DNA from: Gilvimarinus agarilyticus
GTDB lineage: Bacteria > Pseudomonadota > Gammaproteobacteria > Pseudomonadales > Cellvibrionaceae
Length of the DNA: 57,000 bases
Direction: 5' to 3'
Assembly: GCF_000832015.1 (NCBI RefSeq)
Contig: NZ_JXCJ01000001.1
Span: forward strand, 227,392 to 284,391
Shown here: positions 35,365 through 56,211 of the stretch, one piece after another
How positions within the stretch are numbered: position 1 is the stretch's first letter
How the letters are laid out: each line of letters begins with the position of its first letter
Program-made: the position numbers and the translations under genes
The notes under the pieces: model-generated
Databases searched by the model: none
Seen by the model: the letters and a program-made list of their open reading frames with translations, nothing else
What the model was told of the DNA's origin: nothing

Positions 35365-35416
35365 CAGGCGCTCGCCTCCCTCTTTTACACACTAAAGCCG
35401 TTAACCAACCCTTTAT

Positions 35417-35442
35417 AGTGCACGGGCCTGTGTCCGTGCACT
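35417..35442. promoter_or_regulatory. 9-bp inverted repeat, possible enhancer site
   Basis: AGTGCACGG (35417-35425) and CCGTGCACT (35434-35442) pair perfectly with an 8-base spacer. It lies 114-139 bases upstream of the predicted sigma-54 start site, where activator enhancer sites usually sit. The spacing does not match the 17-bp NtrC site, so another activator is possible; it could instead be a weak terminator of the SDR gene. Confidence 0.4.
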
Positions 35443-35529
35443 GCATTAGCACCAACACAAACGCCGCAGGCGTAAAGCGACGCTCATTAACTAAAAGCAG
35501 ATCAATCGCTTAGGCGCATTTATGATTAT

Positions 35530-35545
35530 TGGCACAAGCACTGCA
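35530..35545 (+). promoter_or_regulatory. sigma-54 (RpoN) promoter of the guanidine operon
   Basis: TGGCACAAGCACTGCA matches the -24/-12 consensus TGGCACG-N4-TTGCA at all but two positions and has the required GG-N10-GC spacing. Transcription would start near 35556, nine bases before the riboswitch. RpoN dependence would tie the operon to nitrogen status or to a dedicated activator. Confidence 0.6.
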
Positions 35546-35564
35546 TAAACTAAAGCAACTCACT

Positions 35565-35615
35565 TCCGGGACGACCCGGAGCGGTAGTACCGCTTTTTTG
35601 TCTGGACGACCAGAC
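35565..35615 (+). promoter_or_regulatory. guanidine-II (mini-ykkC) riboswitch
   Basis: Two perfect 6-bp hairpins with identical ACGA loops are present: TCCGGG-ACGA-CCCGGA (35565-35580) and GTCTGG-ACGA-CCAGAC (35600-35615), joined by 19 bases. Two such hairpins with ACGR loops define the mini-ykkC motif, known to bind guanidine through a loop-loop contact. The linker folds into AGCGGT-AGT-ACCGCT followed by six T residues, resembling a small terminator. Directly after the second hairpin, ACGACA (35614-35619) can pair with TGTCGT (35643-35648), covering the GTG start and enclosing the GGAGG ribosome-binding site. Folding of the second hairpin competes with two of these bases, a plausible translational switch. 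Confidence 0.88.
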
Positions 35616-35646
35616 GACATTTTGAATTATTATTCAGGAGGTTGTC

Positions 35647-36693
35647 GTGGCATCCAGTAACACACCCAGCTCCCATACAGCGTTTACCGAGCTGCCTAAG
35701 GTCGATATTAGTGGCTTGCGCTCTAGCGACTTGCAAGATCGCTTAACGGTTGCCGAACAGCTAGGCAAAGCAGCTCGCGAAGTAGGCTTCTTATACATTA
35801 CCGGTCACGGTATCGATCCCGCCTTAAGCGAAAACCTAAAAGCACGCACACGCGACTTTTTTGCTCAGCCACTAGCGCAGAAAATGCGCTACTACATTGG
35901 TCAATCGGTTAATCACAGCGGTTATGTCCCCGAAGGAGAAGAGCAATTTGGCGACGGCAACATCGACCACAAAGAAACCTACGACGTTAATTTTGATTAC
36001 CTCCCGGAGGCCGGGCGCAGACCCATGCTGGGGCCCACCCAGTGGCCCGATGACGACGCCTTTAAGCGCGATGTAAAAGCCTATTACGACGCGGCCCTTA
36101 ACGTTAGCCAAAGCTTGTTTCGGGGTTTTGCCCTAGCCCTTGGCCTGCCTGAAGACACACTGACAAAGTTAGTGACAACGCCACCCAGCCAGTTGCGCTT
36201 AATCCACTACCCGTTTAACGCCAGCGCACCACAAGATCGGCCCGGCATTGGCGCCCATACCGATTACGAATGCTTTACCATTTTATTGCCCACCGCACCG
36301 GGGCTAGAGGTACTTAACGGCGCCGGTGAGTGGATTGACGTACCTCTGGTGGATAATGCCTTTGTCATTAACATTGGCGATATGCTGGAAGTACTCAGCA
36401 ATGGCGAATTTGTCGCCACCTCACACCGGGTACGCAAAGTACAAGAAGAGCGTTACTCGTTTCCGCTGTTTTGCGCGTGTGATTACGACACCGTTATATC
36501 CCCGCTGCTCGCTGCCAAAGAGGCTGACGACCAAAACCGCTATGCCGCTATTAACTGTGGCGAGCACCTTTACGCGCAAACTATTCAAACTTTTCAGTAC
36601 TTAAAAACCAAACTCGACCAGGGCGAAATACAAATGCCCGAGGGCTCCAAGGGTCTATCCAGTTTTGGCTACCACAGCGAAGCACAAGGATAA
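35647..36693 (+). CDS. 2-oxoglutarate/Fe(II) oxygenase, isopenicillin N synthase family, guanidine-controlled
   Basis: This 348-residue soluble oxygenase has the family's double-stranded helix with Fe(II) ligands H204-x-D206 (IGAHTDYECFT) and H260 (TSHRV), and R269-x-S271 (ERYSFPLF) for the 2-oxoglutarate carboxylate. The N-terminal domain carries LPKVDISGL and GFLYITGHGI. Bacterial ethylene-forming enzyme, which releases guanidine from arginine, and plant homoarginine hydroxylases belong to the same superfamily. The gene starts at a GTG behind CAGGAGG and is the first gene after the riboswitch. I infer hydroxylation of guanidine or a guanidino compound; the exact substrate cannot be read from the sequence. 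Confidence 0.85.
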   Translation: MASSNTPSSHTAFTELPKVDISGLRSSDLQDRLTVAEQLGKAAREVGFLYITGHGIDPALSENLKARTRDFFAQPLAQKMRYYIGQSVNHSGYVPEGEEQFGDGNIDHKETYDVNFDYLPEAGRRPMLGPTQWPDDDAFKRDVKAYYDAALNVSQSLFRGFALALGLPEDTLTKLVTTPPSQLRLIHYPFNASAPQDRPGIGAHTDYECFTILLPTAPGLEVLNGAGEWIDVPLVDNAFVINIGDMLEVLSNGEFVATSHRVRKVQEERYSFPLFCACDYDTVISPLLAAKEADDQNRYAAINCGEHLYAQTIQTFQYLKTKLDQGEIQMPEGSKGLSSFGYHSEAQG

Positions 36694-36697
36694 CCCC

Positions 36698-37672
36698 ATG
36701 CACCTACTTGAGCTCATTAAACACCATGCCACACAAGCCCAAAACGGCGTACCCGACTGGATGCTGGGCTACTACAAGCGTAGTGCCATTAGCTTTGCCG
36801 ATGGCACTACCGATATAGCCACCCACGTGTGCTGGTTGCAAAGCCGCAACTTTACCATCGATTTGCGCCTACCCATTAATAACCAACAGGTTAGCGCCAA
36901 ACCGCTGGAGCAATACACCGAGAATGAGCTGCGCACACTGGGTAATTATGAAGGCTGGGAGGCGCCCTGCGAATGGGACGGCACCGCCTTAAGCTGGCTT
37001 AACGACACCTCACTGCAATACCACAACCGCTGGACCGAACCCGGCATATTACATCGCATTGGCAACTGCATGATCGAGCTGTGCCCCAGCAACGCCTACG
37101 TCGAGGATTGGCGTTTACAACCCTCCGGCCCGGGCCCACTGGTTGGTCTTCGCTTAATCGATGACACCTGCCTTGACAGCAACAGCGTACTGCACCGCGG
37201 CGGTGGTTTAATTGTCTGTGGCGATTATGCCGCACTGGTACTCGGGCGGCCGGACAGCCAAGCTGACGCCGGCCACAGCGCACAACCGGCCAATCAGTTT
37301 CGCGAAGCCTTAGTCGCGGCGCAGGGCAATACCAGCGCCCTCAAACCACTGCTGCAATTTGAAACATCCGTGGCTCACGGTTCGCTGAGTGATGGTTATA
37401 AAATACAACTTACCACCTGCCCCCACCGCAACGGCCAATCGTTACTCCCACTCGACGGCTTCGAGTTCGACGAGATCGGGCAACAAGTACTGCACCGATT
37501 TACCGACGAGCACGGCCGCGCTCGCCTACGGCGTTTTAGTATCGACACGATCGAAGCCGATTGTCATTACTCGCAAGCAACCCCCACAACGCACGATGCA
37601 AAATCTTGGCTCTCGCAGGAAGCGGAAACCCTAACGCGATACACCCAACCGCTGTTCAGTCATTCACTTTAA
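36698..37672 (+). CDS. unrecognised protein of the guanidine operon
   Basis: This 324-residue protein is not assigned to a family with confidence. It has no signal peptide or membrane segment. Its middle shows beta-strand-rich repeats such as GTTDIATHVCWLQSRNFTIDLRLP, quoted here by its ends GTTDIATHVCW and NFTIDLRLP, followed by a WEAPCEWDGTALSWLND stretch and GNCMIELCPSNAYVEDWRLQ. The pattern reminds me loosely of lipocalin-like HRI1 domains. The start at 36698 has AAGGA seven bases upstream and lies four bases after the oxygenase stop, so translation is coupled. It may bind the substrate or product of the oxygenase; function unknown. Confidence 0.7.
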   Translation: MHLLELIKHHATQAQNGVPDWMLGYYKRSAISFADGTTDIATHVCWLQSRNFTIDLRLPINNQQVSAKPLEQYTENELRTLGNYEGWEAPCEWDGTALSWLNDTSLQYHNRWTEPGILHRIGNCMIELCPSNAYVEDWRLQPSGPGPLVGLRLIDDTCLDSNSVLHRGGGLIVCGDYAALVLGRPDSQADAGHSAQPANQFREALVAAQGNTSALKPLLQFETSVAHGSLSDGYKIQLTTCPHRNGQSLLPLDGFEFDEIGQQVLHRFTDEHGRARLRRFSIDTIEADCHYSQATPTTHDAKSWLSQEAETLTRYTQPLFSHSL

Positions 37673-37696
37673 CTTTTTATTGACAGGTAACCGCTT

Positions 37697-38770
37697 ATGA
37701 CTCAGAAAAAATCATTTATCTACTCGATTATTACCGCCGTGCTACTGGTGTTTAGTGTAGCCACACACGCCGCCGAGAAAAAAACCTCATTTAAAGTCGC
37801 CTGGTCTATTTACGCCGGCTGGATGCCCTGGGCCTACGCCAACGACAAAGGCATTGTAAAAAAATGGGCCGACAAATACGGCATCGAGATCGAAGTGGTG
37901 CAGATGAACGACTACATCGAATCCATCAACCAGTTCACCGCCGGCGAGTTTGACGCCTGCGCCATGACCAATATGGATGCCCTGACCATTCCCGCCGCTT
38001 ACGGTGTAGATACCACTGGCCTAATTTTGGGTGATTACTCTAACGGTAACGATGGCCTCGTGATCAAAGAAGGCGACAGTGTCGAAGATATTAAAGGCCA
38101 CAACGTCAACTTGGTCGAGCTGTCCGTATCGCATTACTTTTTGGCCCGCGCGCTGGATATGCACGGCATGTCTGAGCGAGACGTTACCGTGGTAAACACC
38201 TCCGACGCCGACGCGGTTTCTACCTTTATGACAGATGACGTCACCGTAGCCGCCGTGTGGAACCCACAACTGGGTATTATTTTAGATGAAGCGCCTAAAG
38301 CCACCGAGGTGTTTACCTCCAAAGAGATCCCCGGTGAAATCATCGACATGATGGCTGCCAATACCGAGGTTCTGGAAGCCAACCCCGAATTAGGTAAAGC
38401 GCTGGTAGGCGCTTGGTTTGAAACCCTGGCCCTCATGCAGGGTGACAGCGCCGAGGCCATAGCCGCCCGCACTTACATGGCCGAGCAAGCCGGCACCGAC
38501 TTAGCAGGCTACGAGGCACAGCTCGACGACACCATGCTGTTCTACACGCCGGAATCCGCTTACGAATTTGCCAGCAATAAAGACCTGATCGGCTTTATGG
38601 ATAAAGTCCGCCAGTTCTCATTCGATAAAGGCCTACTGGGCGAAGGCAGCCCTAGCCCCGATGTCATCGGCATGCAATTCGGTGACGACTCCGTACTCGG
38701 CGACAAAAGCAATATCAAGCTCCGCTTTGATACCACTTACGTCAAAATGGCCGCCGACGGCGAGCTGTAA
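37697..38770 (+). CDS. ABC-transporter substrate-binding protein, NMT1/TauA type (urea/guanidine-like)
   Basis: This 357-residue periplasmic protein has a signal peptide cleaved after THAA. KVAWSIYAGWMPWAYANDKG, INQFTAGEFDACAMTNMDAL and the ending RFDTTYVKMAADGEL match the group annotated as putative urea ABC-transporter binding proteins, which are often found with ykkC riboswitches and urea/guanidine carboxylases. It lies 24 bases after the preceding gene in the operon. The permease and ATPase genes that normally follow are missing: the next genes belong to an unrelated regulator-nuclease cassette, so the protein is either an orphan or works with a transporter encoded elsewhere. Confidence 0.88.
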   Translation: MTQKKSFIYSIITAVLLVFSVATHAAEKKTSFKVAWSIYAGWMPWAYANDKGIVKKWADKYGIEIEVVQMNDYIESINQFTAGEFDACAMTNMDALTIPAAYGVDTTGLILGDYSNGNDGLVIKEGDSVEDIKGHNVNLVELSVSHYFLARALDMHGMSERDVTVVNTSDADAVSTFMTDDVTVAAVWNPQLGIILDEAPKATEVFTSKEIPGEIIDMMAANTEVLEANPELGKALVGAWFETLALMQGDSAEAIAARTYMAEQAGTDLAGYEAQLDDTMLFYTPESAYEFASNKDLIGFMDKVRQFSFDKGLLGEGSPSPDVIGMQFGDDSVLGDKSNIKLRFDTTYVKMAADGEL

Positions 38771-38881: not shown

Positions 38882-38922
38882 AGATGATCTGATCATAAGG
38901 AGAGACCTATGTCAGATCATCT
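38882..38922 (+). promoter_or_regulatory. perfect 11-bp inverted repeat enclosing the RBS and start codon
   Basis: AGATGATCTGA (38882-38892) and TCAGATCATCT (38912-38922) pair perfectly. The 19-base loop between them holds the AAGGAG ribosome-binding site and ends with the ATG of the XRE gene. In mRNA it would present the start in a hairpin loop; in DNA it could be a further operator. The right arm lies inside codons 2-5. Confidence 0.6.
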
Positions 38923-39136
38923 ACTCGCTGCCATTGGCGGCAAAATAAAAGAAAAGCGCCTGAATAAAAACCTCTCTCAAGAGGCATTAGCATCACGCGC
39001 TGAGCTCGATCGCACCTACATTAGCGGTGTTGAGCGCGGCAAACGCAACGTCAGCCTACTGAACCTTTTTAAAATAGCCCAAGCCCTAGAAATACAAGCC
39101 ACGGAACTGATTGACATTGGTGTAACCAATGATTAA
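38909..39136 (+). CDS. XRE-family controller (C-protein-like)
   Basis: This 75-residue protein is almost entirely an XRE helix-turn-helix (IKEKRLNKNLSQEALASRAE, then LDRTYISGVERGKRNVSL), the size and pattern of restriction-modification controller proteins. The two C-boxes just upstream support autoregulation. It overlaps the following nuclease-helicase gene by eight bases, the coupling known for C protein and endonuclease genes. No methyltransferase is present in the window. This cassette is more AT-rich than its surroundings and looks transferred. Confidence 0.85.
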   Translation: MSDHLLAAIGGKIKEKRLNKNLSQEALASRAELDRTYISGVERGKRNVSLLNLFKIAQALEIQATELIDIGVTND

Positions 39137-41129
39137 TCCAGCCATGTACGCTAGTGACTTTCAGTCATTTCTCCACGAGCCCACTGACTCAATCCTAGGG
39201 AAATTAAGCACGGCCCACACTCAAACTCTGCAAAATATCGCCACCCGAGCCTGGGCGGAAGAAATTGAGGTACTGAAAGAAACACTAAAAACCTTAGAGA
39301 ACAGAGACACTTACATTCTTCTCGAAATGTACATTCCAAGAATAGGCCGACGCGCCGATGTTATTTTAATTGTCAGTGGAGTGATTTTTGTTATTGAGTT
39401 TAAGGTAGGTGCCAAGAAATTTCTCCCAGAGGACCTACGGCAATGTCATGGCTATGCTCTCGATTTAAAAAACTTTCATAAGGGCAGCCACGATAAAAAA
39501 ATTGTCCCGATACTAGTAGCCACACAGGCCAAAGAAAGCGAAATGATTCTTTCGCTGGACTCAGACGGCGTCGCAAGAGTTATCAGTGCACCGCCTTCAC
39601 AGCTGTTAAAAGCCATTCACAGTGTGACCGAATCCGCCAAAAGCCATGACTTCAACATTCAAGACTGGGAGAGCTCGGGCTATCTTCCTACTCCCACTAT
39701 TATTGAAGCCGCGCAAGCACTCTACAGCTCGCATAATGTCGCCGATATAACACGAAGCGAAGCCGATAAAACCTGCATTGTTACCACAAGCAATAAAATC
39801 AATGACATTATTCAATACAGCAAAGACAACAAGAGGAAATCCATTTGTTTTGTGACAGGCGTCCCGGGTGCCGGAAAAACTCTGGTCGGCCTAAATGTAG
39901 CCAGCCAACATTCAAACCCCAATGATTCACTCTACTCCGTATTTCTTAGCGGCAATGGACCCTTGGTATCTGTCCTGCAGGAGGCATTAGCTAGGGATCA
40001 GAAAAAGAGGGTACAAATCACCATTAAGGATGCCCGCCGAAAAACTGAACAAATGATTCAGAATATTCATCGATTTCGTGACGCACACCTCGACGGAAGT
40101 AGACCTCCAGAGCAGGTGGCGATTTTTGACGAGGCACAACGAGTATGGGACAAAAGACAAACCAGCTCGTTTATGCAGCGCAAGCGTAAAAAACCAAAAT
40201 TCTCAATGTCAGAGCCGGAACTTTTAATTGAGTTTATGGATCGCCATAGAGAATGGTCAGTTATCGTGGCACTTATTGGCGGCGGACAAGAGATAAACAC
40301 CGGAGAAATCGGCCTTTCAGGCTGGGTCGAAGCATTGGAAGACAGATTCAAACATTGGGATATTTACTATTCGAGCAAACTGTTCAATGGTAATTACATT
40401 ACTGACGGCCTTGATAGTTCATCATTCTCTAAATCTCAATCAATTAATGACTTGCACTTGGCGACCTCAATGCGCTCATTTAGAGCCGAGCACTTGTCCA
40501 ACGCAATACATCACCTTGTCGACGGTAACGCCTCAACTGCCAAGTCGGAGATAGTTCAACTAATAGACCAATACCCTGTTCGCATAACTCGAGACTTTGA
40601 GAAAGCCAAGCAATGGGTTAGAGATCAACAAAGGGGCAACGAATCGGCTGGCATGCTAGCATCTTCCGGCGCAACCCGCCTGAAATCAGAAGGCATTTAT
40701 GTAAAAAATGAAATCGACCCCAGAAACTGGTTTCTAAACCCATTTGAAGATGTGCGATCTTCTAACTTTCTTGAGGACGTAGCTACCGAATTTCAAGTTC
40801 AAGGGCTAGAGCTTGACTGGTGTTTAGTCGCATGGGATGCGGACTATCGGTTCGTGAACGGCGCTTTTGAGCATTGGCAGTTCAAGGGCACAAAATGGCA
40901 AAAACGCAATAATTCTGACAGCCAACGGTACTTAAAAAATGCCTATAGAGTTCTACTTACAAGAGCGAGGCAAGGTATGGTGATTTACGTTCCCGAGGGC
41001 AATGCACAAGATGGGACTCGATGCCCTTCATACTATGACGGTATTTACGATTACCTGTTGTCGTGCGGTATTGAATCATTATGCTTAAAAGCTAACGACA
41101 AAAGCTACGAAAAAGAAGTCACTCTTTAA
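39129..41129 (+). CDS. PD-(D/E)XK nuclease fused to Schlafen-group-3-type helicase (DUF2075)
   Basis: This 666-residue protein joins two enzymes. The N-terminus has a PD-(D/E)XK-type site: D77, E90 and K92 (RRADVILIV and VIEFKVG). From residue 235 a superfamily 1 helicase follows: Walker A GVPGAGKT (244-251), Walker B AIFDEAQ (331-337), QGLELDW near 555, and motif VI LLTRARQG near the end, as in the SLFN-g3 helicase family (formerly DUF2075). It probably cuts and unwinds nucleic acid in anti-phage defence. The upstream C-protein-type gene controls it. The ATG overlaps that gene; M6 is an alternative start. Confidence 0.85.
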   Translation: MINPAMYASDFQSFLHEPTDSILGKLSTAHTQTLQNIATRAWAEEIEVLKETLKTLENRDTYILLEMYIPRIGRRADVILIVSGVIFVIEFKVGAKKFLPEDLRQCHGYALDLKNFHKGSHDKKIVPILVATQAKESEMILSLDSDGVARVISAPPSQLLKAIHSVTESAKSHDFNIQDWESSGYLPTPTIIEAAQALYSSHNVADITRSEADKTCIVTTSNKINDIIQYSKDNKRKSICFVTGVPGAGKTLVGLNVASQHSNPNDSLYSVFLSGNGPLVSVLQEALARDQKKRVQITIKDARRKTEQMIQNIHRFRDAHLDGSRPPEQVAIFDEAQRVWDKRQTSSFMQRKRKKPKFSMSEPELLIEFMDRHREWSVIVALIGGGQEINTGEIGLSGWVEALEDRFKHWDIYYSSKLFNGNYITDGLDSSSFSKSQSINDLHLATSMRSFRAEHLSNAIHHLVDGNASTAKSEIVQLIDQYPVRITRDFEKAKQWVRDQQRGNESAGMLASSGATRLKSEGIYVKNEIDPRNWFLNPFEDVRSSNFLEDVATEFQVQGLELDWCLVAWDADYRFVNGAFEHWQFKGTKWQKRNNSDSQRYLKNAYRVLLTRARQGMVIYVPEGNAQDGTRCPSYYDGIYDYLLSCGIESLCLKANDKSYEKEVTL

Positions 41130-55977: not shown

Positions 55978-56030
55978 TACGGGAGCGTCAGGTGCAGAAA
56001 AATGGATGCGGGTCATAGGCAAGAAATTAA

Positions 56031-56205
56031 AAACCCCAAGATGCCGCTGTCAAGTTGGCCTTGAACCCTAGAGTTCAAGGGGTGGCGCCTGCGATGTTAT
56101 TAGGCTTTCCGTCGTGCGGACATGCTCACAAACACCGGCGAGGCACTACCTGGTACAGCAGTATCGGCTCAAGGACTTAGTCGACTGGCGCACATCCCAG
56201 GGTGT
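56031..56205 (-). ncRNA. ssrS: 6S RNA
   Basis: The minus strand matches 6S RNA: GTCCTTGAGCCGATACTG near the 5' end, GTGAGCATGTCCG in the middle and CCTTGAACTCTAGGGTTCAAGG near the 3' end (quoted by its halves CCTTGAACTC and GGGTTCAAGG). The ends pair: ACCCTGGGATGT with GGCATCTTGGGGT. 6S RNA mimics an open promoter and sequesters sigma-70 RNA polymerase in stationary phase. The 5' end is placed from the TATAAT box; both ends are uncertain by a few bases. The location between zapA and ygfA is the conserved one. Confidence 0.92.
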
Positions 56206-56211
56206 GTATTT

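Follow-up and report, generated by a model that had tools for sequence, protein, structure and literature searches.

A predicted methylguanidine demethylation unit with its own guanidine-II riboswitch in Gilvimarinus agarilyticus

Introduction

Enzymatic demethylation of methylguanidine has been described in Vreelandella boliviensis, where the methylguanidine hydroxylase MgdH and the N-(hydroxymethyl)guanidine lyase MgdL act as a pair (Sinn et al., October 2025, PMC12508155; here, as with the other papers cited, statements refer to the part of the text that was available). According to this account, MgdL is specific for N-(hydroxymethyl)guanidine and loses its activity when D49 or R51 is changed, and the guanidine-II RNA of the organism binds both guanidine and methylguanidine (PMC12508155). 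Huang et al. (2017, PMC5486947) proposed, for a guanidine-II (mini-ykkC) RNA of Gloeobacter, a stem between P2 and the ribosome-binding site that is mutually exclusive with the folded riboswitch, and the Escherichia coli model places an anti-Shine-Dalgarno sequence within the linker (PMC9094411, PMC9300104). Here we analyze 57,000 nucleotides of Gilvimarinus agarilyticus (the window; C1:227392-284391 of a 4.19 Mb genome in two contigs), in which positions 35530-38770 of the plus strand comprise a sigma-54-like element, a guanidine-II riboswitch, the genes mgdH and mgdL, and a TIGR03427 substrate-binding protein (SBP) gene. We are largely confident that this unit is a methylguanidine demethylation module; its enzymes and riboswitch class are already known, and what is new lies mainly in their arrangement and control.

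The mgdH-mgdL gene pair

The three open reading frames encode 348, 324, and 357 amino acids and are separated by 4 (mgdH-mgdL) and 24 nucleotides (mgdL-SBP gene), which agrees with the operon proposed in the initial annotation. The first gene, mgdH (35647-36693, +), starts with GTG and contains the DIOX_N (PF14226) and 2OG-FeII_Oxy (PF03171) domains, as expected from its earlier designation as a 2-oxoglutarate/Fe(II) oxygenase; it probably encodes a methylguanidine hydroxylase. The Fe ligands H204, D206, and H260 of the HxD...H pattern as well as the 2-oxoglutarate-binding R269 are invariant in all 10 aligned sequences. The second gene, mgdL (36698-37672, +), had been described as encoding an unknown protein, and profile searches at E 0.01 indeed assigned it to no Pfam or NCBIfam family. 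Likewise, no PDB sequence was matched at E 1, and a Foldseek search returned no usable match (first match with a template modelling score of 0.13) for an AlphaFold model that, built from four sequences, was poor (predicted local distance difference test, pLDDT, 63; predicted template modelling score, pTM, 0.66). The protein carries a D-x-R motif, of which D55 and R57 are invariant in both alignments (A3 with 12 and A4 with nine sequences). These residues may correspond to the catalytic D49 and R51 of V. boliviensis, and the gene product is probably an N-(hydroxymethyl)guanidine lyase.

Instead, the substrate of the oxygenase could be a different guanidino compound, such as dimethylguanidine, agmatine, arginine, or homoarginine, with the lyase splitting the respective hemiaminal. 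The best PDB match of MgdH was deposited as an ethylene/succinate-forming enzyme (9ovh, 180.6 bits), and more distant MgdL-like genes lack a guanidine-II element, so that elsewhere the pair may act on different compounds. However, gene pair, riboswitch, and carboxylase context all fit the methylguanidine system characterized experimentally, whose lyase is specific for the hydroxymethyl compound (PMC12508155), and a different substrate in Gilvimarinus therefore appears quite improbable.

The distant MgdL-like genes (25-30% identity; loci L036, L037, L088-L091, L020, and L021, in our numbering of loci, L, and genomes, G) have no guanidine-II leader and in some cases lie beside ATP-binding cassette (ABC) transporter genes or oxygenases; possibly, they encode lyases for other hemiaminals. 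In L020 and L021 (both short stretches), L037, and L091, the MgdL-like gene stands alone, without an oxygenase homolog in the stretch. In L090 (3254-8442), two tandem MgdH homologs and two TIGR03427-like SBP genes adjoin the MgdL-like gene.

The guanidine-II leader

The leader of mgdH consists of a P1 hairpin with the core CCGGG-ACGA-CCCGG (35566-35579, +), a predicted linker hairpin (35580-35594) ending in a T run (35594-35599), and a P2 hairpin, GTCTGG-ACGA-CCAGAC (35600-35615, +). The P1 core recurs in most of the 25 leaders compared, and the P2 core CTGGACGRCCAG in 24 of them, being absent from L072 alone. At permissive settings, the Rfam model RF01068 matched 35563-35614, including P1, with 24.6 bits (E 0.0047), the top of four matches within 35365-35700. 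All three mgdH leaders that were scored (window, 24.6; L014, 24.1; L072, 30.8 bits) fall below the Rfam gathering cut-off of 32 bits, and the leader is therefore named guanidine-II by its structure and conservation. Two ACGR hairpins (GGACGRCC) occur immediately 5' of mgdH in 26 of the 33 loci holding both homologs, a conservation that makes a chance occurrence unlikely and bears out the riboswitch class given in the initial annotation. Such oxygenases are thus repeatedly found behind a ykkC-class riboswitch, and their complete absence from such sites, which that annotation had named as grounds for refutation, does not apply. The 26 of 33 is the count over loci with both homologs; the number 25 is not a rate, because the compared leaders were selected for carrying the hairpins. 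L086 also carries the leader and joined after the statistics on the 25 leaders; L029, being the same DNA as L015, was not counted separately, and L016 (Nitrospira; 36% identity over 52 amino acids) was dropped.

A linker hairpin is predicted in all 20 leaders with linkers of 16-33 nucleotides; four of the 25 lack it (L049-L051, 10-nucleotide linker; L072, 8 nucleotides), and the 58-nucleotide linker of L052 is ambiguous. The linker arms match their own partner better than swapped ones (0 of 20000 permutations reached the value; 13 lineages). Since stem and T run (35580-35599) are listed as terminator-like, and a similar, interrupted T run follows in L030-L033, the hairpin might be an intrinsic terminator whose formation is prevented by the ligand. 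Yet leaders outside the window's group have the hairpin without the T run (e.g., L013, L014, L035, and L069), the linker stem would form ahead of P2 synthesis, and the published guanidine-II model is translational (including PMC9094411, PMC9300104). Outside the window and its close relatives, the T run is largely missing; we therefore do not favor termination control and regard it as unlikely.

Translational control would rely on a further helix, P3, formed by ACGACA (35614-35619) and TGTCGT (35643-35648), which encloses the Shine-Dalgarno sequence (35636-35641), reaches the start codon, and can extend into the 3' strand of P2. Averaged over 16 lineage representatives, the duplex between the P2 3' strand plus flank and the Shine-Dalgarno/start region has an energy of -9.55 kcal/mol, compared to -6.95 kcal/mol (standard deviation 0.56) for permuted partners (p 1e-4, the lowest value attainable with 20000 permutations). 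In a repeat, 0 of 20000 permutations reached the observed value, and in a separate control that shuffled the flank, 0 of 1000 did; the complementarity was weaker (237 of 20000 permutations) when just the 10 nucleotides after CCAG were used. Neither P1 nor the P2 5' strand showed a complementarity signal with the Shine-Dalgarno/start region, and the P3 signal is absent from lineages L035, L048, L067, L068, and L072. Compensating changes thus support the P3 helix. An anti-Shine-Dalgarno sequence in the linker, as in the E. coli model, was also considered and rejected, its signal being weaker though present (permutation p 0.0025; 13 of 1000 shuffles). A simple competition between P2 and P3 was rejected as well: the computed energies show no opening upon P2 formation, with the start codon on average 0.05 less open. 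The energies hence do not explain how the ligand would open P3; support extends to the helix and not to the switching step, which we infer.

In relatives, guanidine-II elements also precede gca (L049:13277 region, minus strand; L050:12729; L051:12814; L035, minus strand), and there the P1 and P2 stems and the linker differ from those of the mgdH leaders. Conceivably, though rather doubtfully, the mgdH leaders form their own guanidine-II subclass, marked by P1 and P2 cores that hardly vary, by a linker that folds, and by a helix that holds the Shine-Dalgarno sequence and shares the P2 strand. Methylguanidine would be the inducer to which such a subclass is tuned, and with sigma-54 as the upper layer of control, the cell would open the module only if nitrogen shortage and methylguanidine coincide.

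The sigma-54-like element

Promoters of the nitrogen sigma factor sigma-54 follow the consensus TGGCACG-N4-TTGCW, with GG and GC ten bases apart. The element TGGCACA-AGCA-CTGCA (35530-35545, +), located 18 nucleotides before P1, satisfies this spacing and agrees with 10 of 12 consensus letters, as anticipated by the nitrogen-type promoter of the initial annotation. When the 150 nucleotides before P1 were shuffled 300 times, 1.3% of the shuffles gave such a match; the bare pattern is unremarkable (two occurrences in the window vs. 1.6 expected by chance). Sigma-54-like elements with at least 8 of 12 letters occur in 16 of the 25 leaders, and the mean over all 25 was reached by none of 300 shuffle sets. 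Both in the window and in L030-L033, four relatives from its genus, the element lies 18-20 nucleotides before P1, which by the usual spacing between sigma-54 elements and their transcript starts places the start just before P1. Control by NtrC appears plausible; in the open-access literature, we found nothing joining a guanidine riboswitch with sigma-54 or guanidine carboxylase with NtrC, and a single paper on MgdH together with methylguanidine.

Substrate uptake and fate of the products

The third gene (37697-38770, +) encodes an SBP of 357 amino acids that scores 511.7 bits against the TIGR03427 model (“putative urea ABC transporter substrate-binding protein”; cut-off 333.9), in keeping with the urea/guanidine-type binding protein expected from the initial annotation. 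Judging from its context, it probably serves guanidine or methylguanidine. An SBP with at least 60% identity to an SBP of the G. agarilyticus genome is the third gene at nine further mgdHL loci. The window SBP shares 60-61% identity with the SBP of the probable guanidine carboxylase (gca) operon and 44-51% with two further ones; the genome holds four TIGR03427 SBPs in all, with L010 and L011 at 454.3 and 381.4 bits.

The gca operon encodes, in this order, SBP, permease, ATPase, UAAP1, UAAP2, and the carboxylase. It is preceded by a guanidine-I riboswitch (93.8 bits) and contains a guanidine-II element between cgdB and gca (38.1 bits); the names cgdA, cgdB, and gca are probable assignments based on likeness to the V. 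boliviensis operon (PMC12508155). Because of these riboswitches and its gene order, we read the carboxylase as guanidine carboxylase. The genome further encodes an allophanate hydrolase (799.6 bits) and, 2.8 kb to the left of the window, a glutathione-dependent formaldehyde dehydrogenase (TIGR02818; G000:C1:223481-224584, minus strand; 732.2 bits). With the carboxylase operon, the allophanate hydrolase, and the formaldehyde dehydrogenase present, both proposed products have encoded outlets.

The following scheme could account for these features. At nitrogen shortage, sigma-54 RNA polymerase, probably together with NtrC, would transcribe the unit from the element at 35530-35545. Binding of guanidine or methylguanidine would join the P1 and P2 loops and free the Shine-Dalgarno/start region from P3, so that mgdH could be translated. 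The periplasmic SBP would catch (methyl)guanidine and deliver it to a permease and ATPase encoded elsewhere, most likely those of the gca operon. MgdH might then hydroxylate the methyl group, consuming 2-oxoglutarate and O2, and MgdL would split the hydroxylated product into guanidine and formaldehyde. Guanidine could be processed to ammonia via guanidine carboxylase, carboxyguanidine hydrolase, and allophanate hydrolase, and formaldehyde could be handled by the glutathione-dependent dehydrogenase.

Alternatively, methylguanidine might be removed as a harmful compound, with any nitrogen gain being secondary. A guanidine-II element precedes a SugE-type small multidrug resistance (SMR) exporter in the G. 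agarilyticus genome, and an SMR gene follows mgdL immediately on an Acinetobacter plasmid. The binding protein and sigma-54-like element of the unit and the encoded path to ammonia speak against detoxification, to which we give little credence.

Several observations weigh against a methylguanidine module of this kind. The assignment of MgdH and MgdL is derived from gene pair, motif, riboswitch, and context, and a pattern search of nine genomes did not find the published V. boliviensis primer stretch. That the proteins and the RNA act as their V. boliviensis counterparts is thus argued by analogy (PMC12508155). Seven of the 33 loci with both homologs have no guanidine-II element directly before mgdH, as judged by cmscan (L036, L073, and L074) or by pattern (L088, L089, and L090). 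The seventh, L087, does carry the element in this operon, but in front of cgdA. No sigma-54-like element at 8 of 12 letters was found for nine of the 25 leaders. Even in the absence of ligand, P2 formation is predicted to be favored by 3.7-10.0 kcal/mol; when P2 is forced to form, the start codon opens in two and the Shine-Dalgarno sequence in five of the 25 leaders. Lastly, the unit lacks genes for a permease and an ATPase, and NCBIfam calls the carboxylase a “urea carboxylase” (1834 bits).

Distribution

An MgdL probe matched in five of 369 genomes of the class (the own genome plus four weak matches), in 8 of 97 relatives, in 13 of 390 genomes of the order, in 8 of 44 of one further family, and in 10 of 398 of the phylum; these genome draws overlap, and the counts are not additive. 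Within the genus, five of the eight genomes searched gave a match. Matches were found, among others, in Stutzerimonas azotifigens, Pseudomonas sp. GV071, and Marinimicrobium alkaliphilum, and in three plasmid records (two Novosphingobium, one Acinetobacter). On the Acinetobacter plasmid (L072; NZ_CP015595.1), which is typed as mobilizable, the order is permease, ATPase, guanidine-II element, mgdH, mgdL, and SMR gene, with an SBP gene and atzF on the opposite strand. A search for MgdL relatives in viral contigs gave 30 stretches fitting a pattern, none of them confirmed.

A full-length homolog of the G. agarilyticus carboxylase (at least 54% identity) is present in 21 of the 23 genomes with the mgdHL pair. 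It is split into two pieces in G609 and in the closest copy of G790, and G806 and G830 have the pair without a homolog at this threshold. Two of the three genus members without the pair contain a carboxylase homolog as well. Genes of the gca operon share the fetched stretch with mgdHL in L013, L035, L049, L050, L051, L086, and L087. Given this distribution and proximity, mgdHL looks like an add-on to guanidine use.

These findings indicate that methylguanidine demethylation, described from a single halophile, is an accessory to guanidine use that is scattered over several genera of Gammaproteobacteria, occurs on an Acinetobacter plasmid as well, and often comes with its own riboswitch. Control is likely two-layered, by the nitrogen sigma factor and a metabolite-sensing RNA. 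The mgdH leaders offer natural material for studying the discrimination of guanidine and methylguanidine, and the Rfam cut-off for guanidine-II misses some of them (three of three scored here).

Neighboring features in the window

Downstream of the unit, positions 38909-41129 encode a helix-turn-helix regulator followed by a Schlafen-group-3 helicase (PF09848). They match the PADLOC models Control_protein (75.7 bits) and PDC-S41 (914.9 bits) and are therefore a candidate anti-phage defense pair. A 6S RNA is located at 56029-56206 on the minus strand (109.1 bits).

Comparison with known systems

The ethylene-forming enzyme and the (homo)arginine hydroxylases of the plant 2-ODD-C23 type belong to the same oxygenase superfamily as MgdH. 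As in the MgdH route, hydroxylation next to a guanidino nitrogen releases guanidine, and in 2-ODD-C23 the hydroxylated product decays spontaneously (PMC12508155). Unlike for MgdH, their substrates are amino acids; the window oxygenase was compared with them through the PDB search only.

Like the guanidine-II RNAs of E. coli sugE and Gloeobacter, the window leader has two ACGR-loop hairpins immediately before the ribosome-binding site. It resembles the Gloeobacter proposal in the stem between P2 and the ribosome-binding site (PMC5486947). Its linker hairpin, the P2 strand shared by P3, and an Rfam score under the gathering cut-off set it apart from these RNAs; the E. coli model has its anti-Shine-Dalgarno sequence in the linker (PMC9094411, PMC9300104).

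Among the closest counterparts is the V. boliviensis system: there, too, a 2-oxoglutarate/Fe(II) oxygenase gene is followed by a family-less gene whose product has a D-x-R motif, a guanidine-II riboswitch is present, and the genome encodes a carboxylase pathway (PMC12508155). The initial annotation had suggested a new oxidative route for guanidino compounds; the oxidative step on such a compound stands, but its novelty was overtaken by that report (PMC12508155). In V. boliviensis, however, mgdH and mgdL sit between gca and atzF within the guanidine carboxylase operon and the guanidine-II element precedes gca, whereas in Gilvimarinus the element directly precedes mgdH, and the unit is separate, with its own binding protein and a sigma-54-like element (PMC12508155). 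A separate mgdH-mgdL-SBP unit with its own leading riboswitch goes beyond that account in the part available, as do the sigma-54-like elements and the shared leader architecture kept by compensating changes (PMC12508155).

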